DNA from: an uncultured Faecalibacterium sp.
GTDB lineage: Bacteria; Bacillota; Clostridia; Oscillospirales; Ruminococcaceae
DNA length: 64,000 nt
Direction of reading: 5' to 3'
Assembly (NCBI GenBank): GCA_934524985.1
Contig: CAKSYT010000009.1
Span: 13,545 to 77,544, forward strand
Positions within the stretch are counted from its first letter, which is position 1, and the number at the start of each line of letters is the position of its first letter. The position numbers and the translations under genes are program-made. Shown in pieces: positions 5,471-64,000 of this stretch. Under the pieces are notes generated by a model. It searched no databases and had not been told where the DNA came from. It worked only from the letters and a program-made list of their open reading frames with translations.

Positions 5471-5475
5471 CCCGG

Positions 5476-5510
5476 GCTGCCGCACAGCATTTTGTGCGGC
5501 AGCTTTTTTG
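5476..5510 (+). terminator. Rho-independent terminator
   Basis: Eleven-base perfect stem GCTGCCGCACA/TGTGCGGCAGC followed by TTTTTTG, directly after the 59-residue gene. Confidence 0.85.
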
Positions 5511-5545
5511 TGGGAACGAACCCTCTCCGCAGTGCAGCGTCCTCG

Positions 5546-10836: not shown

Positions 10837-11853
10837 ATGATCATCTCCACCAAAAAAGGCACTCCCAAAGAGGAACTGGAAAAGATCGTTGATAAATTCG
10901 AAAAGCAGGGTCTGGACGTGACCCTGATCACCGGCAAGGACTACAACGTGTTCGGTCTGGTGGGCGACACCACCAAGATCGACGAGCGGGACGTGCTGGC
11001 AAACCCGTGGATCGACAACGTTACCCGCGTGTCTGCGCCCTATAAGCGCGCAAACCGCCTGTTCCACCCCGCAGACTCGGTCATCGACTGCGGCGGCGTG
11101 AAGATCGGCAGCAAAGAAAAGATCGCCGTTATGGCGGGCCCCTGCAGCATCGAAAACGCCGAGCAGGCCCTGCGCATCGCGCAGGGGGTCAAGGCGGGCG
11201 GCGCAGCGCTGTTCCGCGGCGGTGCCTACAAGCCCCGCACCTCTCCCTACGCCTTTCAGGGTCTGGAGACCGAGGGCATCTTGGACATGGTAAAGGCTCG
11301 TGAAGCCACCGGCCTGCCCATCGTCTCCGAGCTGATGAGCGAGGACCGCATCCCGGAGTTTGAGGAGTATGTGGACGTGGTGCAGATCGGCGCACGCAAT
11401 ATGCAGAACTTCCAGCTGCTCAAGGCGGTGGGCAAGATGCACAAGCCCGTGCTGCTCAAGCGCGGCCTGTGCAACACCATCGAGGAGTGGATCATGAGCG
11501 CCGAGTACATCATGGCCGGCGGCAACGAGCAGGTCATCTTCTGCGAGCGCGGCATCCGCACCTTTGAAAAATACACCCGCAACACGCTGGATCTTTCCGC
11601 CGTGCCCATCATCCACGAAAAGACCCATCTGCCCATCGTGGTAGACCCCAGCCACGCTACCGGCAAGGCCAATCTGGTAGAGCCCATGATGATCGCCGCC
11701 GTGGCCGCCGGTGCGGACGGTCTGGAGGTAGAGGTGCACTACGACCCCCAGCACGCATGGAGCGATGGCGCTCAGTGCCTGACCCCGGACGCCTTTGCAC
11801 AGGCCATGGCAAAGTGCCGTCAGGTGGCTTGGGCCATCGGCCGGGAACTGTAA
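10837..11853 (+). CDS. aroF: 3-deoxy-7-phosphoheptulonate (DAHP) synthase with N-terminal ferredoxin-like regulatory domain
   Basis: 338 residues, same layout as the Thermotoga/Bacillus-type enzymes. Residues 1-75 form a ferredoxin-like domain (MIISTKKGTPKEELEKIVDK) that in that family mediates feedback inhibition. The barrel follows with MAGPCSIENAEQ, FRGGAYKPRTSPYAFQGL, QIGARNMQNF, KRGLCNTIEEW and VDPSHATGK. It condenses PEP and erythrose-4-phosphate, the committed step. AAAGGAAC lies 10 bases before the ATG. It comes 26 bases after aroQ. Confidence 0.96.
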   Translation: MIISTKKGTPKEELEKIVDKFEKQGLDVTLITGKDYNVFGLVGDTTKIDERDVLANPWIDNVTRVSAPYKRANRLFHPADSVIDCGGVKIGSKEKIAVMAGPCSIENAEQALRIAQGVKAGGAALFRGGAYKPRTSPYAFQGLETEGILDMVKAREATGLPIVSELMSEDRIPEFEEYVDVVQIGARNMQNFQLLKAVGKMHKPVLLKRGLCNTIEEWIMSAEYIMAGGNEQVIFCERGIRTFEKYTRNTLDLSAVPIIHEKTHLPIVVDPSHATGKANLVEPMMIAAVAAGADGLEVEVHYDPQHAWSDGAQCLTPDAFAQAMAKCRQVAWAIGREL

Positions 11854-11916: not shown

Positions 11917-13200
11917 ATGCTAGTAACCATCAGACCTGCCCCCGGCGGCATCGGGGGCGTGATCGCCGCGCCGCCCAGCAAAAGCATGGCGCACCGCGCC
12001 GTGCTGTGCGCCGCGCTGGCTGTGGGGCGCTCCCACATCACTCATCTGGAATTCAGCAAGGACATCTCTGCCACCCTGTCCGCCGCCGCGCAGCTGTGCG
12101 CCGCCGTGGATACCGGCGCGGACGATGCCACCGTGCAGGGGCTTGGGCATTTTCTGCCCCTGACCGCCCCGGTGGACTGCTGCGAAAGCGGCAGCACCCT
12201 GCGGTTTTTGATCCCCATCGCCAGCCTGACCGGCCAGCCGGTCACCTTTACCGGGCGCGGGCGGCTGATGGAGCGCCCGCAATCCGTATACGAAACGTTA
12301 TATCGCGAGCAACATCTACGGTTTGAGCAGTCCTCTGCCGGGCTGACCGTGGAGGGCGCACTGACCCCCGGGGACTACCGGCTGGCGGGCAACGTGTCCA
12401 GCCAGTTCATCAGCGGGCTGCTGTTCGCGCTGCCGCTGCTGCCCGGGGACAGCCAGCTGCACCTCATCCCCCCCGTGGAGAGCCGCAGCTATATCGACAT
12501 GACCCGCGCCGTGCAGGCCGCCTTTGGGGTGCACAGCCGCTGGCTGGACGAAACCACCCTGCTGCTGCCCGGCGGGCAGCAGTACCGCCCCTGCGATTAC
12601 AACGTGGAGGGTGATTACAGTCAGGCCGCTTTCCCGGCAGTGCTGGGCGCGGTGTGCGGCGGGGTGACCATTACCGGCCTTGCGCCGGACACTTTGCAGG
12701 GCGATGCCGCCATTCTGGACATCCTGCGCCGGTGCGGCGCGGTGTTCACCCGCACGGGTGACAGCGTCACCTTTGCAAAAGCCCCCCTGCATGGGGTGGA
12801 CATCGACCTTGCGGACTGCCCCGACCTTGGCCCTGTGCTGATGGTGCTGGGTCTGCTGTGCGAGGGCACCACCGTCATCCGCAACGCCCAGCGGCTGCGC
12901 CTGAAAGAGAGCGACCGCATCGCGGCTATGGAAGCCGAGCTGCGCGCCTGCGGCGGTGTGCTGGAAAGCGACGGCGGCACCATCACGGTGCACGGCTGTG
13001 CCGGGCGTCTGCACGCCCCCGCCGCGCCCCTGCACGGCCACAACGACCACCGGGTGGTCATGAGCCTTGCGGTGCTGGCTGCTGCCGCCGCACTGCCCCT
13101 GACCGTGGACGATGCCGAAGCCATCCAGAAGAGCTGGCCCGGCTTTTTTGCAGATGCAGCGCCGCTTGGCGTGGAGGTTCAGGAAGAAACTTCCGATTAA
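11917..13200 (+). CDS. aroA: 3-phosphoshikimate 1-carboxyvinyltransferase (EPSP synthase)
   Basis: 427 residues, exactly the common size. Transfers enolpyruvate from PEP to shikimate-3-phosphate. Motifs: PPSKSMAHRA (N-terminal Lys of the active site), ESGSTLRFLIP, the GNVSSQFISGLLFALP loop, EGDYSQAAFP, and LRLKESDRIAAM near the C-terminus followed by HNDHRVVMSL. The ATG at 11917 has AAGGAT about 12 bases upstream; an in-frame TTG at 11896 would overlap the repeat and is less likely. Confidence 0.96.
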   Translation: MLVTIRPAPGGIGGVIAAPPSKSMAHRAVLCAALAVGRSHITHLEFSKDISATLSAAAQLCAAVDTGADDATVQGLGHFLPLTAPVDCCESGSTLRFLIPIASLTGQPVTFTGRGRLMERPQSVYETLYREQHLRFEQSSAGLTVEGALTPGDYRLAGNVSSQFISGLLFALPLLPGDSQLHLIPPVESRSYIDMTRAVQAAFGVHSRWLDETTLLLPGGQQYRPCDYNVEGDYSQAAFPAVLGAVCGGVTITGLAPDTLQGDAAILDILRRCGAVFTRTGDSVTFAKAPLHGVDIDLADCPDLGPVLMVLGLLCEGTTVIRNAQRLRLKESDRIAAMEAELRACGGVLESDGGTITVHGCAGRLHAPAAPLHGHNDHRVVMSLAVLAAAAALPLTVDDAEAIQKSWPGFFADAAPLGVEVQEETSD

Positions 13201-13210
13201 AGCCACTATT

Positions 13211-13352
13211 ACAGCTGCCGCTTCCCGCTGCGGCCCCTCTTGTGAAAATGCTTTTGTCGCGGCCCGCAGACCGCGACAAAAGCGAAATAATATAAATCAT
13301 TTTCCGCTGAATATGGCCAGAGCATCGCGGAGGCCATTCAAAATCGTCCACC
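13211..13352. repeat. Dispersed repeat, family 2, half copy A
   Basis: Lies in the 225-base gap between aroA and tyrA. It contains TGTGAAAATG, a perfect 13-bp hairpin (13250-13262 with 13271-13283, loop CCCGCAGA), then CGAAAT..ATAAAT, TTCCGCTGA, CAGAGCA, CGGAG and AATCGTCC. The same landmarks in the same order occur at 15423-15563. The hairpin could weaken transcription between aroA and tyrA. Confidence 0.65.
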
Positions 13353-13425
13353 CAAAAAGCCGCCGCACAAAGCCCTGCGCAGCAGCTTTAAACAAAATCA
13401 CGATTTCCATGCGTGGAGGTAGAAG

Positions 13426-14289
13426 ATGCTTGATAAAACAAAACGTTATCTCGTAGTGGGTCTGGGTCTGCTGGGCGGCAAGTACGCGCTGGAGCTGACC
13501 CGCGCCGGCTTCCATGTAGACGGCATCAACCGCAGCGAGGGACATTTGCAGTACGCGCTGGAGCACGGCTATATCGCCGGCGGCAAGACCCATGATTTTG
13601 AGGACCTTGTCCGGCAGGCCGACCATATCATCTTTGGCCTGTACCCCACCGCGCTGCTGGACTGGTTTGGCACCTACGGCCATCTGCTCAAACCCGGGTG
13701 CATCTTTACGGATGTTTCCGGCGTCAAGACCGGCCTTGTGGAGCCGGTGCAGGCGCTGTGCCCGGCGGGGGTGGAGTTCATTGCCAGCCACCCCATGGCC
13801 GGCCGCGAGACCTCCAGCGTGGAGCACGCCGCCGAGGTGAATTTTGCCCCGGCAAACTTCATCATCACTCCCACCGAAAAGAACACCCCGGCGGGCATCC
13901 AGTGGGCAAAGGAGCTTGCCGAGGTGCTGGGCTTCAAGCATATCTGCACCCTGACCGTGCAGGAGCACGACCGGATGATCGGCTATGTCAGCCAGCTGTG
14001 CCACGCCATTGCCGTAAGCCTGATGTGCGCCAACGACAACTCCTCGCTGTGCGAATACACCGGCGACTCCTTCCGCGACCTGACCCGCATTGCACGCATC
14101 AACGATAAAATGTGGGCAGAGCTGTTTTTGTGGAACAAGCAGAACCTGATCAGCGAGATCGACCAGTTCGATTCCGCTTTGCAGGAGATGCGCGCCGCCC
14201 TTGTGGCAGACGACCGGGACAAGCTGGAACAGATGTTCCGCCTTTCCACCCAGCGCCGCGCCGCCTTTGACAAAAAGCTGCCGGAATAA
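13426..14289 (+). CDS. tyrA: Prephenate dehydrogenase
   Basis: 287 residues. Oxidatively decarboxylates prephenate to 4-hydroxyphenylpyruvate with NAD(P)+. Rossmann start YLVVGLGLLGGKYALELTRAG, then DVSGVKTG, ASHPMAGRE with the catalytic His region, and the helical dimer domain QEHDRMIGYVSQLCHAIAV ending GDSFRDLTRIA. There is no C-terminal ACT domain, so feedback control by tyrosine, if any, must act elsewhere (perhaps on AroF). GGAGGT lies 5 bases before the ATG. It closes the biosynthetic operon, and a WYL regulator follows 22 bases later. Confidence 0.95.
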   Translation: MLDKTKRYLVVGLGLLGGKYALELTRAGFHVDGINRSEGHLQYALEHGYIAGGKTHDFEDLVRQADHIIFGLYPTALLDWFGTYGHLLKPGCIFTDVSGVKTGLVEPVQALCPAGVEFIASHPMAGRETSSVEHAAEVNFAPANFIITPTEKNTPAGIQWAKELAEVLGFKHICTLTVQEHDRMIGYVSQLCHAIAVSLMCANDNSSLCEYTGDSFRDLTRIARINDKMWAELFLWNKQNLISEIDQFDSALQEMRAALVADDRDKLEQMFRLSTQRRAAFDKKLPE

Positions 14290-49234: not shown

Positions 49235-50602
49235 TTACAGTTCCATGCCATGACTGCGCTTTTTCGGTTTGGTGCGTGTCTGCTCACGCTGATTGATTTC
49301 TTCCTGCCGCTGATGCAGCTTTTGCAGAACAGACGGACGAGCATTTTCTTTGATTTGCTCGATTGAAGGTTTTTTGATTTCCGGCTTTATAAGGGCAATT
49401 GTCAATCTTGCGGTAATCCTGTTTACTGCTGCAATAATATTTTTTCGCAGCGTTGTGACTTGATATGTGGTGTAGTCCAATGTTTCCTTGCTTACCTTTC
49501 GCCCCGGCTCTTTCAGCCAGTCCAAATATATATCGACCTGTTCTGTGCTTGCTTTCAAAGCATCGTTCACAGCGTTTTCTGAAACAACAGCCACAGCTTT
49601 GTCGTAGGCAACTGCAGAAATCTCATCCAACAAGTTCTCCGTATCTTCGATCTTCTGAGAAAGTTCACTTAACCGTTTTTCCTGCTTTTGAATTTTTTTG
49701 TCATTGCTCATAATCGTCAAAGACTGATATGTCGTGTGGCGAACTTGCAGAAGATTTTCATTCTCATGTTCCTGTTTCAAATTTTCAAGCTGAGCGGTTT
49801 GCTCCTGCACGGCTTTTTCCTGTTGAGCAAGTTGTTCTTTTTGTTTTGCCATGATATAGTCCTGCTTTTCCAGATAAGCCCGTCCACCGTATTCCGGCAC
49901 TTCATCTAATTCCAGACCGTGGCGTTTGGCGATTTCAAACAGCATCGTGCGGCAGGCTGCATCGAATGTGATTTTGCGATTGTTATAGCGGCCAAGGGGC
50001 TTGTCTGGCTTCGGCAATTCAAAGCCAAGTGCTTCCAATGCCTTTTCCTGCTGGGGTGCAATTTCACCATATTTGTTCTCACAATCAAACACATGGCGTT
50101 CGTGGATGTGCGGCGTTCCCTCATCCAGATGTAACGCCCAATCCAGAATGTGGACGTGCTTGCCAAAACGCTCGTGAAACTCGTCCATAAATTCCGTAGC
50201 GATTTGAAAAAGCTCTTTCGGGGAAGCGTGACTTTCCAGCGTTCCAAGCTGATAGATACTTTCTTCGGGACAGGTCTTTTTGCTGGTTAGCAAATCTTCT
50301 GTTGAGCGGTTTCGTTCTGTGTGCCGGATTTTTGCATTGCGCTCATTCTGCTTTTCGGTGAAGTTGGTGTAATGCAGTTTGTAGTAGAGCTTTTCGACTT
50401 CTTCAAAGGTGTCAGCCAGACTATCCACATCTTTGGGCTGCAAGGCAGAACGGATGCCGTTGTAGCAATCCCAATAGATGTTTTGCTGGACACGTTCCGG
50501 GTCGATATGCTCGCTGTTGGCAATTTCAAAACTGCGGTCATTGTGCTTTGGATTGTAAGTGCCGTGCTTTCCGGCGCGGCCATTGTGTCGGGTCAGTTTC
50601 AG
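49235..50602 (-). CDS. MobV-type relaxase (plasmid mobilization), apparent CTG start
   Basis: 455 residues. The N-terminal KLTRHNGRAGKHGTYNPKHND is the conserved start of this relaxase group; the HUH metal motif is HLDEGTPHIHE near residue 160, followed by a Gln/Glu-rich coiled coil (about 255-330). It nicks oriT and pilots the strand during mobilization by a helper conjugative system. The codon at the conserved start is CTG, with GGAGAG 9 bases upstream; alternatives are TTG at 50632 or 50659. An ATG 7 bases upstream is out of frame. Confidence 0.85.
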   Translation of the reverse strand: MKLTRHNGRAGKHGTYNPKHNDRSFEIANSEHIDPERVQQNIYWDCYNGIRSALQPKDVDSLADTFEEVEKLYYKLHYTNFTEKQNERNAKIRHTERNRSTEDLLTSKKTCPEESIYQLGTLESHASPKELFQIATEFMDEFHERFGKHVHILDWALHLDEGTPHIHERHVFDCENKYGEIAPQQEKALEALGFELPKPDKPLGRYNNRKITFDAACRTMLFEIAKRHGLELDEVPEYGGRAYLEKQDYIMAKQKEQLAQQEKAVQEQTAQLENLKQEHENENLLQVRHTTYQSLTIMSNDKKIQKQEKRLSELSQKIEDTENLLDEISAVAYDKAVAVVSENAVNDALKASTEQVDIYLDWLKEPGRKVSKETLDYTTYQVTTLRKNIIAAVNRITARLTIALIKPEIKKPSIEQIKENARPSVLQKLHQRQEEINQREQTRTKPKKRSHGMEL

Positions 50603-51353
50603 CGACCATCTCTCCTTTCTATGGTTACGCAAAGGACGCCGTGCGCGGGGTAGGGGCAACGCGGTGCAGCGAAGCTACAAATCTGCCGCCTGCTATGCGC
50701 CAGATAATACCCAGTAGGATATGACGCAGAGCATCACATCCACTGGGCAAGGCTGCCGCCCTTGACCCGCGCAAAGATCTGCGATCTCTGCACTCTTGCG
50801 CCGAACAACCTGACAGACAAGACTTGTGAAGTCCTCTCTGCCAGCTTGCCCGGTTCTTCTTCGGTGTCGGTCTGCCTGCAAGCGGTTCCTGCCCGATCCC
50901 CTCCGGTGTATGGCTTCTTCTTGGTGCGCTCATATCATGGCGGCACTTCTCCGAAAAAGCATAGTGGCTTGCAGCCGATCATGCTGTTGTCAAGGTACAA
51001 TGTTGTTTTGTAAGAAGTCGAGGGCTTTCAAAAATGCGAGCAAGCCCGTTTTGAAAGTAATCCCTACACCCTATACAAACTTAATGGGGTGTTTTTAAAC
51101 CGTCTTTCCTAAAAGTTCAGAATTTCTTCACTTTTTAAAAACCTCCTACACCTATAACATTCTAACCGGGGTGTTTGGCAACCTGATTTTCAAATTTTAT
51201 TTGAACGCCTTCTTACTCCTTACACCAATATGAATCTATAGGGCCGTTTTGGAATACAATTTTGGACAAAAAGAAAAACGGCAAAGTTCACAATAGAACC
51301 TTACCGTTTCTGGGAATGCTGCACAGCAGCACCGTATTATTTGTTTGGGCTTA
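50603..51353. other. Intergenic region upstream of relaxase, candidate oriT/replication region
   Basis: 750 bases without a credible gene between two leftward genes. The left 350 bases are GC-rich and the right 400 AT-rich with three iterated hairpin units (51064-51250). This is where an oriT would be expected for a MobV element, but I cannot point to the nick site. Confidence 0.4.
51064..51250. repeat. Three iteron-like units
   Basis: Units at 51064-51095, 51144-51176 and 51217-51250 share (C)TACACC, TATA-rich centre, then GGGGTGTTT (GGGCCGTTT in the last), spaced about 75-80 bases. In the first two, ACACC can pair with GGTGT, giving small hairpins followed by T-runs. Confidence 0.5.
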
Positions 51354-54300
51354 TTATTTCATAACTGCGTTCAGCAATGTCTGATAGTCACTCACCACAT
51401 CGTACACCACGTTTTCATCATTCAGTGCCTTGAAATGTGCGCGGGCACAATCAATTTTCGCTTGTTCTACCGGGGTGATGTGATTGAGCTTCATGGAATC
51501 CAGTGTGCCTTTGGTTTCAGCAACAAAGTAGATGTGCTTGACTGTGCCCTCATAGAACGCAATCGCCCAGTCGGGATTGTATTTTCCAACAGGTGTGGAA
51601 ATATAGAACCCATCCGGCAGCTTTACATAGACTGCCACATCACGGTTCGTATCGAGGTCGGCGGCAAAATCACGCTCATTGCTTGAGTCGTAAATCAAAT
51701 GGTCATACAGATGCCGCTGTACTTTCATAACGTTCGTACCGAGCTTTCCCTTCAAGGTCGGCTCGGTGAAAATGTCCGTGTCGTAATGCTCATCCAGAAT
51801 ATTGTAGGTGATATGCTGGATGATGGCTGTTGCCTTTTCGTCATTGATGAGGGCAGCTGCTTTTAGGATGAACTCTTCCGGGTTATCCTTGAACTGATCG
51901 AACACCGCTTTTTCAATGCCAACCAGAATCTGTACAATCGCCTTGCGGGTCAGCTTAGTTTCAGCCACCAGCTTGCCAATCAGGTCATACTTGACGCTCT
52001 GGCTGGCGTGAATTTTGGTCTGTGGGTCATATTTATGCTGATCCGCTTTTGCGAAAGCAGAGCCATCTAACAGAGAATCCTTGGATTTGATTTCCGTCAT
52101 TTCACCGGATTCTACTTTGAAGTAAATCTTCGATACGTTCAGATTGCGGTTGAGCGAGCGAATGGATTTTTGCACCAGTTCATCCGTGTCAAAATCCACC
52201 ACATAAACCGATTTCGGGCTGATTTTGTTCCAAAGGGCCTTGAACTCCGGCATGGCCAGCTTGTCCGGATCGATTTTTAACTCCACATTGTTGGAACGTG
52301 CATTTTCAGGCAGCATGACCTTATCGCTGTAAACAGAGTCCAGCAAGTCAATGACCGATGCTGCACAGTCTGCAACTTCTTCTGCCACCTGCACCGCATG
52401 GTTTGCATGGTCGGCATAATACTTATCTGTCAGCGCTCCATGGCGGTCCACATAGCCATTCTGCACCAAATCAAAGTAGATGGCAGCGGCGGTGTCAGCG
52501 TCCACAATCTGCTCGTTGCCGTTTGCGTCCGTAAGAACCTTGCCAATAAACAAGGCTGTATCCACCTTTCTGGGACGGTTCGCAACTGCTTCGGCCAGTT
52601 CGCTTTGCAGGCCTTTGGCGAAGCTGTCATAACTTTCGCTGGCAATGACAGTCAGAATGTTGATGTTATGCACATCGTTGCCCAGCACATTCGCATCCAT
52701 GCGTTCGCCGTTCTGGTTGACGCACAGACGCAGGCCGCGGCCAACCTCCTGCCGTTTGCGGACTTCACTGCTGCTCTGTTTCAGCGTGCAGATCTGGAAC
52801 ACGTTCGGATTGTCCCAGCCTTCCCGGAGGGCAGAGTGTGAGAAGATAAAGCGCACGGGGGAACGCTTGGGGTCCCGGTCAAGAAGAAGCTCCTTGTTTT
52901 TCATAATCAGGTCATAGGCACTGATGTCATTGGAGGTTTTCTCCCGCTTGTCATCGCCTGCAACCTGATTGACAAAATGGCCTTTCTTATCCACCGAAAA
53001 ATAACCCGCATGGGTATCGTGCGCAGAGATTGCTTTCAGGTAGCGGATGTAATCATCCTCGCCCAGCGAAAGCTGCATCTGGCCGACAATATCCTCGTAC
53101 TCCTGCTCAAACATCTCTGCATAAATGCCGTTATAGGGCTGGCCTGCGGCATCATAGCACTTGTACTTGTCCACTTCATCAATAAAGAACAGGCTCAGCA
53201 CTTTAATACCCTTGTGGAACAGCTGACGTTCCCGCTCAAGATGCGAAAGGATCGTTTCCCGAATCTGAATGCGGCGCAGCTGGTCCTCGTCCACCTTGCC
53301 GACCACATCTCCGGCAAACAATCGGACACCATTCAGAAATTCGATGTGATTGTCCCGGCCATCGATCTCTTTCACCACATAGCCATCCTTGTATTCGTCC
53401 AGATTGCCGGAATGGTCATAGAGGTTGAATTTCAGCCCAACGGTGCGCGTTACCTTGCGCAGGCCGGATTTTCCCTTGCAGTCGAACTGGATCGTTGCCG
53501 TAGGGTCTGCCTTGGAAAGATTGATACTTTCCAGATAGACAAACCCATCCGTAGCGGTACTGCCGGATTCCGTAATGCCTTTGACCACGATTTTCTTGAC
53601 CAGACACTTATTATAGGCTTCCATTGCATCCAGCCGGTAGACCATGTTGTAGATGCTGTCTGCACGGTGGGTAGCCGAGTAGCGCAGGGTGATCATCGGG
53701 TTGAACTCTTTCATCCGCTCTTTGGTCTGCTTGCCCTCTACCGACTGCGGCTCATCAATAATCAGGATCGGGTTTGTCTTTGCAATAATATCAATGGGCC
53801 GACGGGAACGGAACTCGTCCAGCTTCATGTAAATACGGCGGGCATCTTTGCCTTTGGCATTAAACGCCTGCGAGTTGATGATCATGACATTGATGGAGCT
53901 ATCCGAGGCAAAGCGGTCGATTTCGGTCAGTTGCGCAGAGTTGTAGATAAAGAAGCGGATCTTCTTGCCGTACTCCTCTGCAAAGTGATCCTGTGTGACC
54001 TCAAACGATTTATACACGCCCTCACGGATGGCAACACTGGGCACGACCACGATAAACTTACTCCAGCCGTAATGCTTGTTCAGCTCATACATGGTCTTGA
54101 TATAGGTGTAGGTTTTGCCGACACCTGTTTCCATCTCAATGGTAAGGTTATAGTGTCCCTCCAACTGCTTGGATGGCTCAATCTGGTTGGTGCGCTGGAT
54201 TTTTTGCAGGTGTTCCAGAATAATACTGTCGTTCAGCTCTGGTACAATATGTTCATTGCGCCAGCCTGTGAAGCTTGTTTCCATATCGGTCTGGTAAATG

Positions 54301-54416
54301 CCGCTGCCGTTGTCGATGCGGTAATTCGTGGTCAGATAAGGCTGGCCTGCAAAGACGTCCACTACCGCTTTTGCGGCATCTGCCTGAAATTTTTGGTGTT
54401 TGAATTGAAGTTTCAT
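51354..54416 (-). CDS. Type III restriction endonuclease, Res subunit
   Basis: 1020 residues, full length. SF2 helicase motor: Walker A EMETGVGKT (Lys101), motif II DEPQ at 221, LRYSATHR, and motif VI QEVGRGLRL. The C-terminal nuclease motif NPDWAIAF...FVAETKGT (PD-E-K) near 955-985 is intact. In type III systems Res needs Mod to recognise DNA. It begins 13 bases after the Mod frame, with GGGAG before the ATG. Confidence 0.95.
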   Translation of the reverse strand: MKLQFKHQKFQADAAKAVVDVFAGQPYLTTNYRIDNGSGIYQTDMETSFTGWRNEHIVPELNDSIILEHLQKIQRTNQIEPSKQLEGHYNLTIEMETGVGKTYTYIKTMYELNKHYGWSKFIVVVPSVAIREGVYKSFEVTQDHFAEEYGKKIRFFIYNSAQLTEIDRFASDSSINVMIINSQAFNAKGKDARRIYMKLDEFRSRRPIDIIAKTNPILIIDEPQSVEGKQTKERMKEFNPMITLRYSATHRADSIYNMVYRLDAMEAYNKCLVKKIVVKGITESGSTATDGFVYLESINLSKADPTATIQFDCKGKSGLRKVTRTVGLKFNLYDHSGNLDEYKDGYVVKEIDGRDNHIEFLNGVRLFAGDVVGKVDEDQLRRIQIRETILSHLERERQLFHKGIKVLSLFFIDEVDKYKCYDAAGQPYNGIYAEMFEQEYEDIVGQMQLSLGEDDYIRYLKAISAHDTHAGYFSVDKKGHFVNQVAGDDKREKTSNDISAYDLIMKNKELLLDRDPKRSPVRFIFSHSALREGWDNPNVFQICTLKQSSSEVRKRQEVGRGLRLCVNQNGERMDANVLGNDVHNINILTVIASESYDSFAKGLQSELAEAVANRPRKVDTALFIGKVLTDANGNEQIVDADTAAAIYFDLVQNGYVDRHGALTDKYYADHANHAVQVAEEVADCAASVIDLLDSVYSDKVMLPENARSNNVELKIDPDKLAMPEFKALWNKISPKSVYVVDFDTDELVQKSIRSLNRNLNVSKIYFKVESGEMTEIKSKDSLLDGSAFAKADQHKYDPQTKIHASQSVKYDLIGKLVAETKLTRKAIVQILVGIEKAVFDQFKDNPEEFILKAAALINDEKATAIIQHITYNILDEHYDTDIFTEPTLKGKLGTNVMKVQRHLYDHLIYDSSNERDFAADLDTNRDVAVYVKLPDGFYISTPVGKYNPDWAIAFYEGTVKHIYFVAETKGTLDSMKLNHITPVEQAKIDCARAHFKALNDENVVYDVVSDYQTLLNAVMK

Positions 54417-54429
54417 CTGCTGCTCTCCC

Positions 54430-56574
54430 TCAAATCACCTTGACATCGGTATCCGGCGCATACAGCTTGAAAATCTCAAACACATTGATCTTTTCCGGGC
54501 TGCTGGCAAAGGAAGAATCCCGGAACACTGCACGGCGCGGCTTGCGCTTGGCGATTTCTTTGATAATCGTTTCGGGCACATTGCTGTCAAAACAGGCAAT
54601 CAGCGCATCGGGAACATTCAGCGCAGCATCGCCGGGTGCGTAGGTATGGACAGTGCAGTTGTCGATTTTCTCAGACCGATACGGCATGGACAGCGGCAGT
54701 CCCCAATCCAGCAGACAGCCAAACAGCAAATCAAGGTCGGTGCGGTCCTCTTTGATGTTGCTTTCCAAATCTTCAAGATTGGTCTGGGAGTATTCTTCGG
54801 CAGAATAATAGACGTCCTTCATATTGGTATCGTCCAGCTTGAAAACACGGAAGCCAATGTCCAGACCATCCGCTAACTTTTGGTTTTCAGCAGTTTCATC
54901 TGCTTTGCTCCAACGAGTGGGAATAATCGGAACATCAAAAGGAGTCTGACCATCATCTGCGGCAAATGTTTTCCTAGGTGCAGTATTGATGTTTTTTGCA
55001 ATGTGCTGAAAATCTTTTCCGCTTGTTTTCAATGTTTCATAAAGTTTATCTCCAGCTCTGCGGATACGCTCTTTGCCAATATCGCTGACATTTTTATAAC
55101 CATTTTTGTAGGCTTCGCTTTTTTCATCGCATTGTTCAGGTAACTGCACCATAATAAATTTACGATACCCTGAATCTATGGCATTCAAATCCATTACGGC
55201 ATGGGCAGTCGTTGAAGAGCCTGCGAAAAAATCAAGGATAACAGAATCTTTATCCGCACCAATTTGTATGATTTTTTCAAGCAAAGCGACAGATTTAGGA
55301 AAATCAAATGGTGCGCATCCAAGAAGTGCTTTCAAGGTACGTCGTGCTACATCAGAAGATATATCACCACCACTCCAAACCGTTTTTGCTTTAGACATCT
55401 TTTCATCTTCGTCAGTATCATCTAAAGGATTGAGTTTTGGATCTAAATATATCCGATAATTTACATTCCATTTTTGAGTCCTTTCAGAGTAGTTTGGTTC
55501 AATAATGGACAAGTTTTGCTGAACACGTTCCTTTCCCCAACGCCAACGACCATCCTCACCATTACTTAAACGGGGAACAATTTCAATGAAGTTTTCTTTT
55601 GGAGAAAGGGAAATTTCTTTTGTTTCTTTATTATAATAAATTGGAAAATACATTAAGGGTCTGTCTGCGCGTTTATCAGCATTGCCTCTTTTTCTCAAAT
55701 CACGAAGTTGATATCGATTTCCATTTTCGTCAACCAGATTAAATGCTGCACGTTGTTCTTCTGTTAAAGGAAGTCCATTTGCAGAAAAGTTGTGTTTTCC
55801 AAACACCAATAAATATTCATGACAAATAGCAAAATTTTTGCTATCATTTCGTCCTTTAAGATTACTGACAATGACTAGCTGAGCAACAAAATTTTCTTCA
55901 CCATATATTTCTTCACCTATTTTTCTGAGATTTTCCACTTCATGTTCATCAACACTAATAAAAATAACGCCGTCATCTGTCAACAGATTCCGCGCCAGCA
56001 TCAGCCGCGAATACATCATGCTGCACCAGTCGGAGTGAAACCGTCCGTTGCTGTCATTGTTTTTGAACAGCCGATTCTCGTCCTCATCATACATTCCCAT
56101 CTGACGGTTTTCTTCATCCTGCGAACGCATGAAATCGTCTGCATAGATAAAATCGTTGCCCGTATTATACGGCGGGTCAATGTAAATCATCTTGACCTTG
56201 CCCAGATAGCTCTCCTACAACAGCTTGAGCACTTCCAGATTGTCGCCCTCAATGTAGAGATTCTCGGTATCATTCCAGTTCTTACTTTCTGCCGGGCAGG
56301 GGCGCAGGGTCTTGCGAATGGGCTTGTTGGCTTCCACAATGGATGCCTTTTTGCCCACCCATGTAAACTCGTATGCTTCATCTCCGTCTACAACGTCCGG
56401 CGAGAGCATCTGCTTCAGCAGTTCAAAATTGATACCGCGCTTGTAAACCTTGTGGTCGGCTGTGCTTTTCTCCTCGTCCAGCATTTCTGTGATGCAGTTG
56501 GGGAAGAGCGCGGCGATTTTATCAATGTTCTGGGTTGTCAGGTTGGGGGTCTGAAGGGGAAGTTTGTTGTTCAT
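54430..56574 (-). pseudogene. Type III DNA methyltransferase (Mod) interrupted by one in-frame TAG
   Basis: 715 codons from ATG 56574 (AGGAGG 9 bases upstream) to 54430. Codons 1-119 encode the usual Mod N-terminus (LYIEGDNLEVLKLL at its end). Codon 120 is TAG (56217-56215) where the flanking frame suggests Gln (CAG). Then ESYLGKVK leads to IYIDPPYNTG (motif IV, 132-141) and FFAGSSTTAHAV (motif I, 449-460). Everything else is in frame. A re-start at ATG 56190 (codon 129) would give a 586-residue protein with both motifs but no N-terminus. Could be a nonsense mutation, suppression, or sequencing error. Confidence 0.9.
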
Positions 56575-57325
56575 TGGGAGAGTCCTCCTGTTTTTTGCTT
56601 GTACTATTTATAAAATTTCTAATATCTGCTAAAGATACATCTTCATAAGATATCTTATTTAAAACTCGTTCGGTTCGGGATATGTATATTGATCTATATT
56701 TAATGAACTCTTGGTGTGCCGCAATATATTCTGCAAGCACTTTTTCGCCAAGTGAATCGGACGTTCCTGAAAAATAGTGGTCTATAATTTCTTCAGTTGC
56801 ATCACTCAATCTAATAATTGCATCGCAAATCTTTTGAGAAGGAATCCCCTTATTCCCAGAAATTTCAATAATAAGATTTTCTACTTTTATTGTGAGATCA
56901 CGGCTACATTCGCTTAAAAGGCTTCCTCGTTCAGACATATCTGCTGCCCTTGTATATGCCGATTCTATAGTCCCTGGACTAGATACAATTTCAAATTCAA
57001 AAAAGCAAGTTTGAAGGCGTTGTAATTTTGCGCTACGGTTATCTATAATTTTCCCAATTATCGCTAACTCGTTTGCCTGTTGTGTCAACTTTTCCAGTCT
57101 TTCTTGTGCCCTATCATTTTCTTCCTTGAATTTTTGGTTTTGCCAAACTGCAAGCAAACCCAGAGCCACCGTGCTTGTATAGGTTAAAATATCGCCCGCA
57201 CCCCATTGGGCTTGAAGTTTATCACATGGCGCATCGGTAACGAATAGAATATGAATCAAAATAGCAAATACAATACTGGCGATAATCCATGTTTGGATGA
57301 GATGTTCCTTAATAAATTTTTTCAT
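56522..57325 (-). CDS. Two-helix membrane protein with coiled coil, defence operon, unknown function
   Basis: 267 residues, not recognised. Transmembrane helices at about 12-31 (TWIIASIVFAILIHILFVTD) and 44-61 (GDILTYTSTVALGLLAVW), a coiled coil 65-95 (KFKEENDRAQERLEKLTQQ), then a mostly helical soluble domain and a Gln/Pro/Ser tail. Overlaps the preceding membrane-protein gene by 4 bases (ATGA) and the Mod gene by 53, so it is an integral part of the operon. More AT-rich than the R-M genes around it. Confidence 0.75.
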   Translation of the reverse strand: MKKFIKEHLIQTWIIASIVFAILIHILFVTDAPCDKLQAQWGAGDILTYTSTVALGLLAVWQNQKFKEENDRAQERLEKLTQQANELAIIGKIIDNRSAKLQRLQTCFFEFEIVSSPGTIESAYTRAADMSERGSLLSECSRDLTIKVENLIIEISGNKGIPSQKICDAIIRLSDATEEIIDHYFSGTSDSLGEKVLAEYIAAHQEFIKYRSIYISRTERVLNKISYEDVSLADIRNFINSTSKKQEDSPNEQQTSPSDPQPDNPEH

Positions 57326-57861
57326 AGTTGTGTTTCTTTGTCTTGTTCGGCAGTTTTATTATCTTTGAAAAGTAAAAGGAACAATTTGAATTGTTTCCAT
57401 TGCCCTTTTGTAAATTGTTGGCAGTCAACCAACCACATACTAAAAAACACCAATGCACACGATGCAATTGATATTGCGTTGTTTATCTTTGATGGAAAAT
57501 CAAACGGCACAACAAATGAAGCAAACAAAACAATGTACGCCACACTTTTTATGCTACTTGATATTATACTCCAAATTTTGGTTTTGCGATTATCCGTAAA
57601 ACAGTCAACATAATTTTTTAGAAAAGCTATCATTTTCTCGTCACACTTTGAATCCAAAGTCTCATTGAAAATATCTACTTTTTCTTCTAAAATAGTGGTG
57701 GAAAAATCAAGTTGAGAATCAATCGCTTGCGAAATAGCCAATAAAAAAGTGAAAAGGCCCAGTCCGGCAATAATCCGTGAATTGACTTCCCAGAAAAATG
57801 AGATCACGCATAGACCTGTAAAGCCAACTGCAAGAAAAAGCATACCATTGTTCTTTTTCAC
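57322..57861 (-). CDS. Four-helix membrane protein, defence operon, unknown function
   Basis: 179 residues, GTG start. Hydrophobic helices near 7-24, 29-45, 100-120 and 124-146 as two hairpins around a central soluble part (DFSTTILEEKVDIFNETLDSKCDEKMIAFL). Not recognised. AAAGGAG lies about 12 bases before the start, and the gene overlaps both neighbours by 4 bases. It forms a pair with the 267-residue membrane protein. Confidence 0.72.
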   Translation of the reverse strand: MKKNNGMLFLAVGFTGLCVISFFWEVNSRIIAGLGLFTFLLAISQAIDSQLDFSTTILEEKVDIFNETLDSKCDEKMIAFLKNYVDCFTDNRKTKIWSIISSSIKSVAYIVLFASFVVPFDFPSKINNAISIASCALVFFSMWLVDCQQFTKGQWKQFKLFLLLFKDNKTAEQDKETQL

Positions 57862-58505
57862 AGTTCTTTCAACTCCTTTCGTAATGCTATTAAAGTTGCA
57901 TTCATCTCTACCTGACGATTGAACTGCTTCTCTTTCCGAATCTTATTCTCCAATGCCGCAATCTGCTTTTGCAGCTTTTCACGTTCCGCAGAGCGTTGGA
58001 TGTTCTCCTCAACGCTGTATTCTGCACTCCAGTTCTCGCCCTGCAATCGGGCAATCTGCCGCACCAGTCCATCGTAAACTGCCTCTAAGCTCAGGCCGCT
58101 TATCGCAAGGGACAATTCCGTTTCCGGCATCCAGTCTGTATGCAGATAACAGCTTACCTTGGTATTGCTGTTCGCAGATGTATCTTTACAGCCGATCCAA
58201 GCCTGCACCTTATTCTCATAAGAAAGGACAAACAGAATGTGATAGGGGATTTCGCAGTCGATTTGGCGCAGAACAGCTTCATCCAGCTTTGGCCCGGTCA
58301 GACAGAGCTTGAAAATCTCGATCTCTGTCACCTGTTCCCCGGCAGTGAGATTCAAGGTGGACACCGCCAGCTTGTTGCGCCAGTAGATACAGCGCAGTTG
58401 GTCTGCAAACAATCGCTTGACTGCCGCTGGAACGGCAGCGTTTTCATAGAACTTCTGTTTCGGAATCCGTTTGTTAAACTCCGTGGAGGGTGGAAAGCCC
58501 AGCAT
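57858..58505 (-). CDS. DUF4391 family protein
   Basis: 215 residues. LGFPPSTEFNKRIPKQKFYENA at the start, FKLCLTGPKLDEAVLRQIDCEIPYHILFVL in the middle, a C-terminal coiled coil (about 165-215). This is the DUF4391 family, which I know as a companion of SNF2-type helicases and type III R-M genes; the biochemical role is unknown. ATG 58505 has AGAGG 8 bases upstream, preferred to GTG 58514. Follows the helicase stop by 12 bases. Confidence 0.82.
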   Translation of the reverse strand: MLGFPPSTEFNKRIPKQKFYENAAVPAAVKRLFADQLRCIYWRNKLAVSTLNLTAGEQVTEIEIFKLCLTGPKLDEAVLRQIDCEIPYHILFVLSYENKVQAWIGCKDTSANSNTKVSCYLHTDWMPETELSLAISGLSLEAVYDGLVRQIARLQGENWSAEYSVEENIQRSAEREKLQKQIAALENKIRKEKQFNRQVEMNATLIALRKELKEL

Positions 58506-58517
58506 TGATCTCACCTC

Positions 58518-61500
58518 TTATTGTACCACAAGGAAGCAAATCAGTTCAAAGTCATCCAGCCCGGAAATCGAAGAAAGCAGGGCCGTCGTACCGCCCATCT
58601 TGAACAGACTGTCAATGTCGCTCTCTTCCTTTGCATCCAGAATGGAATTGATAGCCTCGCTCAGCAATTCAGAATAGGCAGACATGTTTTTGCCATCGTC
58701 CGTGGCCTGATTGAACTGTTGGCAAAGGCTCTGATCAGGTTCGGTTTTGCCTTTGCAGAGCAGCCGCAGACGATCCAGCAGCTCTTTCGGAGAAAGATAA
58801 TCACAGACAGTCGAGCCGTCTTGCCCAATATAAACCATATAGAATGGGTGCAGACGGTTTTGCTGATCCACATTGATTTCATTGTTGATGTTTTTCAGAA
58901 CAAAGATCACACCCGGAGGGGCATCGGGCGTAGATGCAACAATCGCGTGCATCCCAAGCGGCGTATGCTCCACATCATCGTGTTTCTTCATATAGTCCAG
59001 CAAGTCCAGCCGGAACTCATTCAACCCCAAGTCCATGATGGAAATGCCGCCCGACATTTCTTCCAGATCGACTACCTCATTCTTTAACCGTTTGAGCTGT
59101 GCGCTGCGATATTCCAAATCGCCTTTTTCTTCCGGGCTGATGAGGTTATCATCCCCTGTTGAAGTCATGACTGTCAGCTTCATTCGAGTTTCCACGCGGC
59201 CCTTCAGGTTGATGTACTCATCCAAATCCACATCCGGCCAGAAGTTGACCAACTGGATGCAGCGATTCTGGCTTCCGATGCGGTCAATGCGGCCAAAACG
59301 CTGGATAATGCGCACAGGATTCCAGTGAATATCATAGTTGATCAGATAATCACAGTCCTGCAAGTTCTGACCTTCGGAAATGCAGTCGGTGGCAATCAAC
59401 AAATCAATATCCGCCTGATTCGCGTTCGGCAGGCTGTCCCGCCGCTTGGAAATGGGCGAAAAGCAGGTGAGAACTGTATTCAGATCACCACTGAGTTTGG
59501 GAATGGTTGTTTTACCATCCACGCTGCCGGTGATTTCGGCAGTGTTCAGCCCAAACTTTTGCTTTACATAGCCGGAAATATTCTGATACAGATAGTCAGC
59601 AGTATCTGAAAACGCAGTAAAAATAATGATTTTCCGGTTGCCGGGATTGATGGGATGCCTTTGCTTTTCGTCAATCAGGCGCAGCAGTTCTTGCAGCTTG
59701 GCATCGTATGCAGGGGTGATATCCTGCACCATCAGGGAAAGAAGCTCCAGATTTTCAGCATCCTTTTCCAGATCATGCAGCCACGAAACATGATCCATAT
59801 CCGCAAGATCAATCTTTACTTTGCGGCCGACTGTAAAAATGTCGTTGTTCTGGTCATCATCGTCCCAATCGGTTGCATCGGAAATGTCGTTCAGCTCCAG
59901 CACACGGCTGCCATTTTGATATGAACGTACCGATTGCATGGTATCTTCAATCAGTTTACTGATTCGGTCAATCGTCAGCCGGAACGCATAAACAGAACTT
60001 TCCAGCCGTTTGAGCAGGTTAATGCTCATCAGACGGCGGATTCCCTCTTCACGGCCTGCCTGCGTCAGCCCCTTTCCATGCTGACTGGGGTCGATGTATT
60101 TGGAAATCCGAGAGGACAGAATAAAGCTGGTTGGGGTGTAAATGTGCAGCGTCAGCGAATCCAGTACATTATAGATCTGCTGATAGTTGATTGCATTATC
60201 AAGACTTGTCAGGCACGGCTGCACAGAAATCGGCTTCAACCGTTCCGGGAAAGTACCAACATCAGAAATATTATAGTATTTTTTGATATGTCGGCGAGAA
60301 CGTGCAATCGTCACACTGTCCAGCACCTCAAAGAAGTCGAAGTCCAATGCCGCAAGCAGCGCGTTTGTGGTACGCTCTGTGACAGGAAGCTTGCTCCATG
60401 TATTGAAAGCCTTTTGCGCCTGCCGGAAAATTTCATCAATCGGAGACGAAGTATTCAGCTTTTCATTGATTTTTCCGGCATCTCCCTCATAGGCAAGCGC
60501 AAGTTGATTTTTCAAATCCACAAAACGATTATTTACGGGCGTTGCCGAAAGCATCAGCACCTTGGTGCGCACCCCAGAACGAATCACGCGATTCATCAAT
60601 TTTGTGTAGCGGTTTTCTTTCTCATCAGTAGAGGTATTACTGCCATTGCGGAAATTGTGGCTTTCGTCAATCACAACAAGGTCAAAGTTCCCCCAGTTAA
60701 GTGCAGCAAGGTCAATACCGTTAGAGGTTCCGCCGGAACGGCTCAAATCCGTATGGTACAACACATCGTAACGGAAACGGTCTTCTACCAGTGGATTGTT
60801 GACGTAGTTGCCTTTATAGATGTTCCAGTTTGCTGCCAACTTTTTGGGACAGAGTACCAAAACGGATTTGTTGCGATTTTCATAGTACTTGATTACAGCC
60901 AGTGCAGTGAACGTCTTGCCAAGGCCCACGCTGTCTGCAAGAATGCAGCCGTTATACTGTTCCAGCTTGTGGATAATGGCCAACGCTGCATCTCGCTGAA
61001 AATCATAGAGCATATTCCAGATTTTACTCTGCTTGAAGCCTGTAGCTTCATTTGGGAGATTATCTTCTGACACATCCTCCAAAAATTCACTGAAAATATT
61101 GTAGAGGGTGAAGAAATAGATAAAGTCCGGGCTGTTTTCTCGATAAGCTGTGCTGATGCTTTGCAATACAATGTCTGTAACATCCTGAAGTCGGGAAGAA
61201 TCATTCCAGATTTCATCGAACAGCGACAAAAAGTAACGGCCGTTTTCAAAGGCTTCGGTTCGCTGAACAGGGTAGTATGCGTTGTTTCCGCGTTCACAAC
61301 CAAGGTCAACCGTTGTAAACCCACTGATTGGCATATAGGAACTTTCACCAACCGTCATGAAACCGGGCATTTGCTCTCCACTGACGTTGGAACGAAATTT
61401 TACTTTCCGTCGCACCCAGTCGGCACATTCTTTCGCCAGTGCTTTTTGGGTGAGTTCATTCCGCAAGCGAACCTCAAATTCTGTGCCGTAAAGGCTCTTT

Positions 61501-61736
61501 TCACGGGTCAATTTCGGAATATAGAACTCTCGCCGCTCTTTTGGCGTGTTTTCCTGCACAAAGGTCGGTGAAGTAAAAATAAAGCGAAGTTCCGCGATTT
61601 CTTCCAACTGTTTCTTTAATTCCTGATACGCATAAATGGAAAAACAGGCCGCAGCAATGGACACGCGGCTCCCTTTCTGCATAGTATCCTGTAAATCTTC
61701 CCGAACAGTGTGGTTGATATTATCCAGAATTTTCAT
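58518..61736 (-). CDS. SNF2-type helicase with N-terminal PLD-like region
   Basis: 1072 residues. Residues 1-170 resemble the phospholipase-D-like domain often fused to such helicases, but no HxKxxxxD motif is seen. The motor has [18 protein letters not shown] (Lys274), DESH at 357-360, [10 protein letters not shown], and C-terminal [43 protein letters not shown] split over motifs V-VI. First gene of the defence operon. Such helicases translocate on double-stranded DNA. Promoter about 75-100 bases upstream. Confidence 0.9.
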   Translation of the reverse strand: [1072 protein letters not shown]

Positions 61737-61887: not shown

Positions 61888-61916
61888 TTGAATTTGGCCT
61901 TCAAATAAGGTATAAT
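61888..61916 (+). promoter_or_regulatory. Promoter of the AlbA_2 regulator
   Basis: TTGAAT, 17 bases, TATAAT. The -10 box overlaps the first in-frame ATG (61915), which rules that ATG out and supports the start at 61960. Confidence 0.75.
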
Positions 61917-61959
61917 GAATTTGCAAACGCTAAAGATTAAGAAGCGAGTAGGTGATACC

Positions 61960-63477
61960 ATGCCTTTCCCCCTCGACCATTACATTGAAGCCTCTCATGT
62001 GGATTACAAGGAACGTCTTGAAGAGAAAAAGCCGCGCAGCTGGCTGAAATCCGTGTCGGCATTTGCCAACACCGAGGGCGGACACCTGATTTTTGGCGTA
62101 AAGAATGAGCCGCGCGAGGTCGTAGGATTGGAAAATCCGCAGGCTGTGGTAAGCAGATTGACGGAACTTATCAAAGTCCGCATTGACCCTACGCCGCGCT
62201 ATCGGGTGCGGGAGGTCGAAATAGAGGGCAAGTCCTGCGTTGATCTGGAAGTACAGGACGGTCCGGCGTATCCATATTATTATGCCTTTGACGGTTCTCA
62301 TACAGCCTATGTGCGGCATGGCGACCAGTCCGAAGAAGCCACTTCACGGGAACTGAACGAACTGATTTTGCAGGGCATGAACCAGACCTTTGATGCCCTG
62401 CCCAGCTCTTATCGGGTGGGTGATGTCAGTTTTACACTGCTGGCAGCTACATTTAAGAATTTGAAAAAAGAGGATTTTGACCTCGAAAAAGACTTGCCAT
62501 CCGCAGGATTAGTAACAGACGATGGACAGATTACGAATGGCGGCCTGTTACTCTGCGATCAGGGCGTTCTGAAACAATCCCGTATTTTCTGCACTCGCTG
62601 GAAAGGCAACTACAAGGGCAGCATTGAAGAAGATGCTCTGGATGACAAGGAATTTCAGGGTGCAAGTCTGATTACGCTGCTGCAAAATGCGGAAGATTTT
62701 GTTCGCAACAACAGCAAAAACCCGTGGAGCATCCGTGGTATGACCCGTGAAGAACGCAGCGACTATCCGTATAAGGCCGTTCGTGAGGTGTTGGTCAATG
62801 CGCTGATTCATCGGAATTATCAGATTCTTGGTTCGGAGATTCATGTGGAAGTGTTCGATGATCGACTGGAGATCACTTCGCCGGGCGGCATGATGAATGG
62901 CCGCAGGGTGCAGGATATGGATATCCGGCACATTCCGTCTATGCGGCGCAATCAGGTGATCTCGGATGTGTTCTCACGGCTCGGCTTTATGGAGCGCCGT
63001 GGCAGCGGCATTGACCGCATCCTGAACTCTTATGTGGAAGTAGCCCAGAAGCCGACCTTCTACTCAGATTCGGATTTCTTTATCGTTACACTGCCGAATA
63101 GAAGTGTAGCGACTCCAGCACAGGTCAGTATGGAAAGTGTGGCAAGTGGTGCGGAAAGTGCGGAAACCTCTGCGGAAAGTGCGGAAACCTCTGCGGAAAG
63201 TGCGGAAACTTCTACAGTGCTCCACGGAATGAGTACGGATGCAGAAGTGAGTGAACTTTGCGAAAGGCTGAATGGCACGAGACTAACTGCAAGTACAAAA
63301 GAGCGGACGCTTGAACTTTTCAAGAGATATCGGTATCAATATCAGTTCCGCAGCATAAACGTTGCACAGCTATATGGCGTTCAGAAATCTCGTGCATCCT
63401 CTATTATCAAGAATCTTATCAAGCATGGATTGGTGACGTCACCAGAATATGGCGTATACCAATTTGTGAAGAAGTAA
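61960..63477 (+). CDS. AlbA_2 / HATPase_c_4 family putative regulator
   Basis: 505 residues. Residues about 8-130 are an AlbA_2 (Schlafen-like) domain (KERLEEKKPRSWLKSVSAFANTEGGHLIFGVKNE), then a GHKL-type ATPase relative (REVLVNALIHRNYQ, LEITSPGGMMNGRRV, FSRLGFMERRGSGIDRI) and a C-terminal winged HTH (INVAQLYGVQKSRASSIIKNLIKHGL). An Ala/Glu/Ser repeat linker joins the last two. Such proteins are predicted transcription regulators or ATP-dependent DNA-binding proteins. It is divergent from the defence operon over a 223-base region, so it may regulate it. Confidence 0.85.
   Translation: MPFPLDHYIEASHVDYKERLEEKKPRSWLKSVSAFANTEGGHLIFGVKNEPREVVGLENPQAVVSRLTELIKVRIDPTPRYRVREVEIEGKSCVDLEVQDGPAYPYYYAFDGSHTAYVRHGDQSEEATSRELNELILQGMNQTFDALPSSYRVGDVSFTLLAATFKNLKKEDFDLEKDLPSAGLVTDDGQITNGGLLLCDQGVLKQSRIFCTRWKGNYKGSIEEDALDDKEFQGASLITLLQNAEDFVRNNSKNPWSIRGMTREERSDYPYKAVREVLVNALIHRNYQILGSEIHVEVFDDRLEITSPGGMMNGRRVQDMDIRHIPSMRRNQVISDVFSRLGFMERRGSGIDRILNSYVEVAQKPTFYSDSDFFIVTLPNRSVATPAQVSMESVASGAESAETSAESAETSAESAETSTVLHGMSTDAEVSELCERLNGTRLTASTKERTLELFKRYRYQYQFRSINVAQLYGVQKSRASSIIKNLIKHGLVTSPEYGVYQFVKK
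63151..63213 (+). repeat. In-frame 3 x 21-bp tandem repeat
   Basis: Three copies encoding AESAETS; the first two are identical and the third differs at one base (CCTCT to CTTCT). It lies in the linker of the AlbA_2 protein. Confidence 0.9.
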
Positions 63478-63567: not shown

Positions 63568-63959
63568 TTAATCTTTCTTGTGTCGGCCACGGTGATCTTT
63601 TAAAGCCGCTTCTCCTTTTTCTTTGTATTTCCTGACCCATGTCATGTATAGATTTGCTGATAACCGACCTTGTACTTTTTCACTATCTCCCCGTAATTGT
63701 ATCCCTTTTCAATGCACTCTCTTACAAGTGCGATTCGTTCCTCGTAGGTAGTACTTCTCCCTTTGGTCATACGGCTGCCTCCTGTATAACTCTTTAATTC
63801 CGTATGACTATTATACATCTTTATCCAGTTTCGCAACTGCCGATCTGACAAAATTCCATATTTTTTGCAGACCGCATCTAGTGTTTTCTGCCCCTTTAGA
63901 TATTCTCCTACTGCTTGATATTTTAATTCGGATGAGTAGTGATGGTTTTTTCTTGACAT
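63568..63959 (-). pseudogene. IS3-family transposase OrfA (HTH) with frameshift
   Basis: ATG 63959 opens SRKNHHYSSELKYQAVGEYL, with two HTH units (VCKKYGILSDRQLRNWIKMY, GYNYGEIVKKYKVGYQQIYT). The frame stops at 63642 after QQIYT because ACATG is duplicated (ACATGACATGG). Removing one copy continues WVRKYKEKGEAALKDHRGRHKKD to a natural stop at 63568. No OrfB (DDE) follows, so this is an inactive IS fragment. Confidence 0.85.
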
Positions 63960-64000
63960 GAAAATACCCCCAGAGTATTCAGAGTTTTTGTTTTTACTCT

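Follow-up and report, generated by a model that had tools for sequence, protein, structure and literature searches.

A membrane protein pair in an exchangeable cargo slot of a helicase-type III restriction operon from an uncultured Faecalibacterium

Within a 64,000-nucleotide stretch of an uncultured Faecalibacterium sp. genome (contig CAKSYT010000009.1 of assembly GCA_934524985.1; hereafter the window), two small genes encoding membrane proteins, TM4 (57322..57861, − strand, 179 amino acids (aa)) and TM2 (56522..57325, − strand, 267 aa), lie inside an operon for an SNF2-family helicase (Hel), a DUF4391 protein and the modification (Mod) and restriction (Res) proteins of a type III restriction-modification (R-M) system. 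The place they occupy, between DUF4391 and Mod, differs in gene content at nearly every locus compared, and the pair is therefore one of many exchangeable cassettes. With moderate confidence, we interpret it as a two-gene defence cassette that acts at the membrane in the manner of abortive infection; the two genes probably constitute an antiviral system not yet described, for which the operon is probably one collecting point among such systems. A preliminary description of this DNA had proposed a six-gene defence system, for which no fixed gene set was found, and had also placed the membrane pair outside the module core as a nested unit, which is supported here.

Cargo slots in the operon

Three junctions were considered, slot A between Hel and DUF4391, slot B between DUF4391 and Mod and slot C between Mod and Res. 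Loci were gathered with the DUF4391 profile PF14335 from 3 of 31 genomes of the genus, 18 of 394 of the order (which we take to be Oscillospirales), 27 of 391 of the class and 33 of 398 of the phylum, with one genome per species and many draft assemblies, and 17 of 52 plasmid records were added. This gave 74 loci, the window and L009 included, with Hel, DUF4391, Mod, Res and all three junctions, after removal of loci truncated at a contig end and of those in which a core gene was not labelled. In one of the latter, L032, DUF4391 (match 9255-9878) was masked by an opposite-strand frame in the gene calls, and its three cargo genes, first listed under slot A, therefore belong to slot B. Cargo was defined as any extra same-strand gene of at least 80 aa, based on mechanical gene calling and with groups uncorrected for relatedness.

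Cargo was present in 39 of the 74 loci (38 without L042, whose extra gene is a Mod fragment), namely 17/17 loci of the order including the window (15/15 without the window and L009), 6/15 of the class (5 without L042), 12/26 of the phylum and 4/16 on plasmids. By junction, it was found in 5 of 86 slots A, 37 of 82 slots B (36 without L042) and 23 of 79 slots C, with empty junctions mostly measuring −38 to about +30 bases and a few 66 to 737. The 90 cargo genes (89 without L042), three of which derive from what reads as a broken AIPR-like gene in L044, fell into 72 homology groups, of which 60 had a single member. The core itself was found across Bacillota and on plasmids, one of these archaeal; it was free of cargo on plasmids of E. 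coli, Methylotuvimicrobium, Acinetobacter, Leuconostoc and Enterococcus, among others, and carried cargo on those of Raoultella, Aeromonas, Citrobacter and the archaeon Methanomethylovorans.

Known defence genes were among the cargo. Matches in a first set of 52 proteins, which left out TM2 relatives and included one opposite-strand transposase from L012, were to TIR_2 (n = 5), ThsB_TIR (n = 3), DUF2971 (n = 3), RhuM, YhcG and Abi_C (n = 2 each) and ThsA-macro, GmrSD, AbiU2, HEPN, MNT and RES (n = 1 each), several matches per protein being possible. A second set, 28 of 29 proteins after a relative in L070 of an L068 gene was left out, gave OLD-like ATPases, TOPRIM, SIR2, HerA, UvrD, DUF4276, RhuM, Schlafen AlbA_2 and TIR. 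Ten cargo proteins were compared singly with PADLOC, which identified in slot B Thoeris ThsA (E-value (E) 1e-99) and ThsB (E 8e-15) at L018, SIR2 (E 2e-164) and HerA (E 3e-262) at L089 and Gabija GajA (E 4e-145) and GajB (E 3e-86) at L104; relatives of both L089 genes also occupy slot B of L108. Complete two-gene systems thus lodge at the place of TM4 and TM2, and the pair has the attributes of a nested backup effector, being located inside the operon, replaceable and positioned where known defence genes sit at other loci. Slot A of L016 holds an MNT gene and a HEPN gene, small membrane proteins were detected by a simple hydropathy count in slots of L015, L024, L025, L027, L043 and L049, and many cargo genes have no recognised domain. 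One operon, L049, encodes a one-transmembrane (TM) protein before Mod (slot B) and a 4-TM protein after it (slot C). On the Aeromonas plasmid L070, an AAA ATPase and DUF4276 pair, similar in layout to PARIS, lies between Mod and Res (12380-14174), and a DUF262 gene precedes the helicase.

As a control, Res loci without the DUF4391 core were fetched from 17 of 19 places, with Mod and Res both visible in 14. A same-strand gene stood between Mod and Res in 10 of these 14, and in all six of those having a shorter Hel-like gene. Therefore, the slots are not tied to DUF4391, and we read them as a property of the helicase-containing type III operons of this order that reaches beyond it. A second type III layout, with a Hel-like gene of 841-904 aa and no labelled DUF4391, was observed at L119, L120 and L123-L126, where the varying genes around Mod include small membrane proteins and others that read as TIR-like.

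The membrane pair, its borders and its relatives

TM4, the upstream partner and candidate effector of the cassette, shows four hydrophobic peaks. TM2, the candidate sensor, comprises an anchor region (residues ~1-80) and a variable C-terminal helical bundle, as judged from conservation, a structural model and its mosaic composition. Neither protein matched a Pfam or NCBIfam family over its cut-off, or a PADLOC family at E 1. TM2 may share the SLATT layout of two TM helices plus a helical region and weakly matched SLATT_1 (NCBIfam NF033634) at 15.6 bits (E 0.012), but the cut-off of that family is 41 bits. The putAbiC-type abortive infection family was not among the Pfam matches of TM2 up to E 1; most matches weaker than about 0.1 are removed by the filters of HMMER. 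The description of TM2 as a 2-TM protein stood for the first segment, which alone passes the Kyte-Doolittle cut-off, and less well for the second (~45-63), which is weaker and from which a long helix begins in the model (overall predicted local distance difference test (pLDDT) score 80). The model places a cytosolic helical region after two TM helices, with low pLDDT over the anchor, and its C-terminal part is a four-helix bundle (block-mean pLDDT of at least 84 for residues 61-230).

A search of 5.8 billion proteins yielded 171 TM2 relatives at E 1e-3, and TM4 has at least 8 relatives, or at least 26 by profile (best 7,996 candidates scored). The TM2 tail is the Mod start in another reading frame; the same tail (PQPD-PEH or near) occurs in 19 of 120 relatives among the matches listed, which therefore probably also directly precede Mod. 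Within the order, TM2 matches were found in 8 of 394 genomes (four at E <1e-80, four between 7e-15 and 1.4e-4) and DUF4391 matches in 18 (16 over the cut-off) of apparently the same 394. Four genomes contained both, compared with 8 × 18/394 = 0.4 expected if independent, and in all four the TM2 relative lay between DUF4391 and Mod (strong matches in L011/G007 and L016/G131, weak in L012/G185 and L026/G139). Neighbourhood with DUF4391 and Mod was thus seen in 4/8 genomes, and the remaining relatives were mostly near DNA-modification genes: one adjoins an MmeI-type enzyme (G321), one with stops within the match lies ~2 kilobases upstream of Eco57I-type methylases (G334), and of two weak matches one is a single gene from HsdS (G323) and the other adjoins a gene read as recombinase-like (G331). 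A scan with TM2 itself added a match in slot B of L009 and one at a contig end in L010. Upstream of TM2 the gene differs, being TM4 in the window and encoding 107 aa in L011, 255 aa in L016 and 232 aa in L009; the L016 partner had no PADLOC match and carries an Rx5H motif that we read as HEPN-like. A distant TM4 relative (24% identical; L034 9939-10481) lies outside any restriction module, next to a 599-aa protein whose cysteines read as zinc-ribbon-like.

Comparison with a near relative, F. prausnitzii APC923/61-1 (L011), delimited the replaced segment. Identity to the window operon was 97.4% over 61867-57898, 92.7% over 56568-55883 and 96.4% over 54863-51300, leaving two gaps. The first is the cassette island (56568..57898, − strand), which extends from the last ~40 bases of DUF4391 (57858..58514, − strand; PF14335, E 1.3e-55), whose 3' end is the left border of slot B, to the first bases of Mod. 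It contains TM4 and TM2 in the window versus the 107-aa gene and a diverged TM2 in L011, and 108 bases inside TM2 alone align (81%). The second island (54863..55883, − strand) is the Mod recognition-domain region, where identity was 0.06-0.72 per 150 alignment columns and one 196-base piece aligned at 77.6%. In an independent trio (L013, L015 and L017) with long flanking pieces 83-95% identical, homology ends 27-40 bases before the DUF4391 end and restarts 3-4 bases before the Mod start, and mid-Mod is replaced too. L013 and L015 have their slot C gene in common, and relative to L017 homology ends 2 bases past the Mod end and restarts exactly at the Res start.

Remnants of the bordering genes were detected within slots. 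Slot B of L024 contains the start of Mod twice in decayed form (11441-11526 and 12693-12779) and the end of DUF4391 once (11562-11614). In slot B of L012 a Mod start (9418-9520) comes first and a DUF4391 end (9537-9584) next, that of L017 holds two DUF4391 ends between cargo genes (9311-9340 and 10078-10301, operon orientation), and in archaeal L075 a Mod start (7816-7864) lies immediately behind DUF4391. The order of Mod start and then DUF4391 end in L024 and L012 is the product expected of head-to-tail stacking of units made up of a DUF4391 end, cargo and a Mod start, a sign that cassettes stack through recombination. Remnants were present at E 1e-5 in 4 of 72 slots of at least 150 bases, with no opposite-strand match in the 72; at E 0.01, the first locus set gave more short plus-strand matches and two 13-base opposite-strand ones. 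Most multi-cargo slots show no remnant, and none of DUF4391 or Mod was found between the TM4 and TM2 genes, which, like their 4-base overlap, speaks for the two being a pair.

TM2 is itself a mosaic. In an alignment of 28 relatives, residues 41-80 were best conserved (mean frequency of the commonest residue 0.85) and residues 111-200 least (0.34-0.35). The anchor (residues 1-40) comes in two types, with 33-44% identity between them in the pairs compared, and each type occurs with the same three C-terminal types, so that all six combinations exist. Over residues 81-240, P0011 and P0012 are 98% identical, P0015 and P0042 92%, and P0038 is 96% identical to P0045 and 94% to P0051; in P0053, a stretch resembling the start of the 107-aa L011 partner is joined to the third C-terminal type (92-98%). 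On these alignments, the six combinations are best explained by recombination in or near residues 41-80. TM2 may be a receptor whose sensing half can be exchanged, with the gene upstream of it as a changing partner.

Proposed function and alternative explanations

The replacement of slot content, together with its stacking at some loci, apparently proceeds through recombination in or close to the conserved DUF4391 and Mod ends. In the most likely mode of action, membrane-anchored TM2 would sense a signal of infection through its cytosolic four-helix bundle, which is swapped between strains, and TM4 would then damage the membrane, such that the cell would stop before phage maturation and the pair would serve as a backup behind restriction. 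More tentatively, helicase-type III R-M operons might be cassette platforms, in which DUF4391, Mod and Res ends act as recombination arms for the capture, head-to-tail stacking and exchange of whole defence modules, integron-like without a dedicated integrase, and in one cassette family of which the membrane receptor TM2 is modular, its sensing bundle swapped against anchor or effector halves via the conserved 40-residue segment to give combinatorial variation of trigger and effector. Our literature search returned no account of the Hel-DUF4391-Mod-Res operon that mentions cargo slots, remnants or the swapping of cassettes. If this reading is correct, the DUF4391-Mod and Mod-Res junctions would be a trap for undescribed defence genes, collectable via two gene ends, and many domain-less cargo genes do occupy places where known systems sit at other loci. 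It would become testable how restriction systems acquire backup effectors, here through recombination at the ends of genes, and the variable half of TM2 would be a candidate for recognising phage signals directly in Faecalibacterium and other gut bacteria.

Alternatively, the pair could be a guardian that monitors the four core proteins Hel, DUF4391, Mod and Res and is set off once these are blocked by an anti-restriction protein of a phage, which we consider unlikely. Nesting in the operon with 4- and 53-base overlaps would suit such a role, and precedents are given in the available part of one account (PMC12707154), where guardians of restriction include PARIS and PrrC, an anticodon nuclease whose gene is nested within a type IC R-M locus. 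The Mod recognition region also changed along with the cargo in both swap comparisons; this is, however, explicable as two independent variable regions. Further, the slot also houses complete systems known elsewhere (Thoeris, Gabija and SIR2-HerA), TM2 relatives occur near quite different enzymes, and the pair stays open in the window whilst Mod is interrupted. Nothing observed shows that the pair is coupled to the DNA-recognition complex of this operon, as the preliminary description had suggested.

Two small overlapping genes might also suggest a toxin-antitoxin system, with TM4 as membrane toxin and TM2 as antitoxin, kept mainly to stabilise the operon or element, and the MNT and HEPN genes in slot A of L016 represent a known toxin-antitoxin arrangement. 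Such an explanation appears rather improbable, as swapping the bundle while keeping a conserved segment would be odd in a plain antitoxin, and TM2 relatives exist without TM4. Least probable, in our estimation highly so, is a structural accessory role in which the membrane proteins tether the restriction complex to the membrane, the site of phage DNA entry. The membrane anchor of TM2 and the location between DUF4391 and Mod would fit a tether, but 46 of 82 DUF4391-Mod junctions are empty, the cargo-free core occurs in several phyla, and, of the 90 cargo genes counted, 60 lack any relative within the set.

The proposed abortive-infection cassette in an exchangeable slot has parallels in several known systems. 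In the available part of one account (PMC12839542), BREX and BREX-related core loci contain nested backup or auxiliary effectors (HEPN, MNT, GmrSD, OLD/TOPRIM and Schlafen), and Schlafen-histidine-kinase-winged-helix-turn-helix genes are linked to BREX loci. The operon described here shares with these the presence of variable effectors inside a modification-restriction operon, with several families common to both, but its core is Hel-DUF4391-type III Mod/Res, no PglZ or BrxL match occurred among nine window genes scanned, and replacement borders and stacked remnants are documented for it. Where that part of the BREX account concerns nucleases, the present cassette consists of small membrane proteins. 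PrrC, as far as its source describes it, is similarly a suicide gene within an R-M operon, as the pair would be, but is one characterised cargo with a known trigger, whereas here there are many cargos and the system is type III. P2/P4-like elements carry antiviral hotspots, in which exchangeable antiviral genes occupy one fixed position of a mobile element according to the part of the report available (PMC9122126); the present hotspot differs from that picture in lying inside a restriction operon, bordered by restriction gene ends. Backup effectors nested in restriction loci are therefore already known, and the operon represents a variant with a membrane pair that matches no Pfam, NCBIfam or PADLOC family over its cut-off.

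Operon genes and surroundings

The six leftward genes and their overlaps had been correctly described, with 4, 4 and 53 bases shared at the DUF4391/TM4, TM4/TM2 and TM2/Mod boundaries, but Res (51354..54416, − strand; PF19778, PF04851; REase_III, E 2.4e-283), the last core gene, falls outside the interval then assigned to the operon, which ends at the Mod stop. Mod is also not one open frame in the window. Its codon 120 is an in-frame TAG (56217-56215), which divides it into an N-terminal piece of 119 aa (56215..56574, − strand; PADLOC MTase_III, E 2.5e-38) and a C-terminal piece of 586 aa (54430..56190, − strand; PF01555, E 1.9e-31; MTase_III, E 1.7e-153), which begins at the DPPY motif and also carries an FAGS motif. 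Mod alone is interrupted, Hel, DUF4391, TM4, TM2 and Res all being open, and an open Mod of 695 aa is present in L011. Mod is apparently broken in L015, L042 and L045 as well, and its loss with cargo retained may therefore be recurrent. Adjacent genes for a DPPY-type adenine methylase and for a protein with ATPase and endonuclease domains define a type III R-M system, and Mod and Res match the EcoP15I type in order and domains; the operon differs from that type in its extra helicase, DUF4391 and cargo slots.

Hel (58518..61736, − strand; PF00176/PF00271), the first core gene, matched the PADLOC family 'HKD+Snf2' (PDLC01075, E 8.2e-126). A simple pattern search found the HxK...G(S/G)xN pattern of an active HKD nuclease missing in 82 of 83 full-length Hel proteins, that of the window included. 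DISARM was rejected, as Hel scored 158 bits against the DrmD-type helicase, for which the cut-off is 610.

The membrane genes are, as proposed, richer in adenine and thymine, with guanine-cytosine (GC) contents of 0.343 (TM4) and 0.372 (TM2) versus 0.469 for Hel, 0.492 for DUF4391, 0.494 for Res and 0.566 for the window, yet the Mod recognition-domain region (0.374) is so to the same degree. At the operon border, a divergent gene (61915..63477, + strand; PF04326, PF13749) encodes an AlbA_2 (Schlafen-type)/GHKL-like protein and is possibly a further cargo gene; L011 has a similar gene at the same place (3973-5553). By eye, the operon is flanked by a mobilisation-type protein (49235-50659, − strand), with no Pfam match over the cut-off, and on its other side by a transposase-like helix-turn-helix protein (63642-63998, − strand). 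Together with the GC content of the operon genes (0.34-0.51), which lies below the window mean, these flanking genes suggest that the operon is an acquired island.

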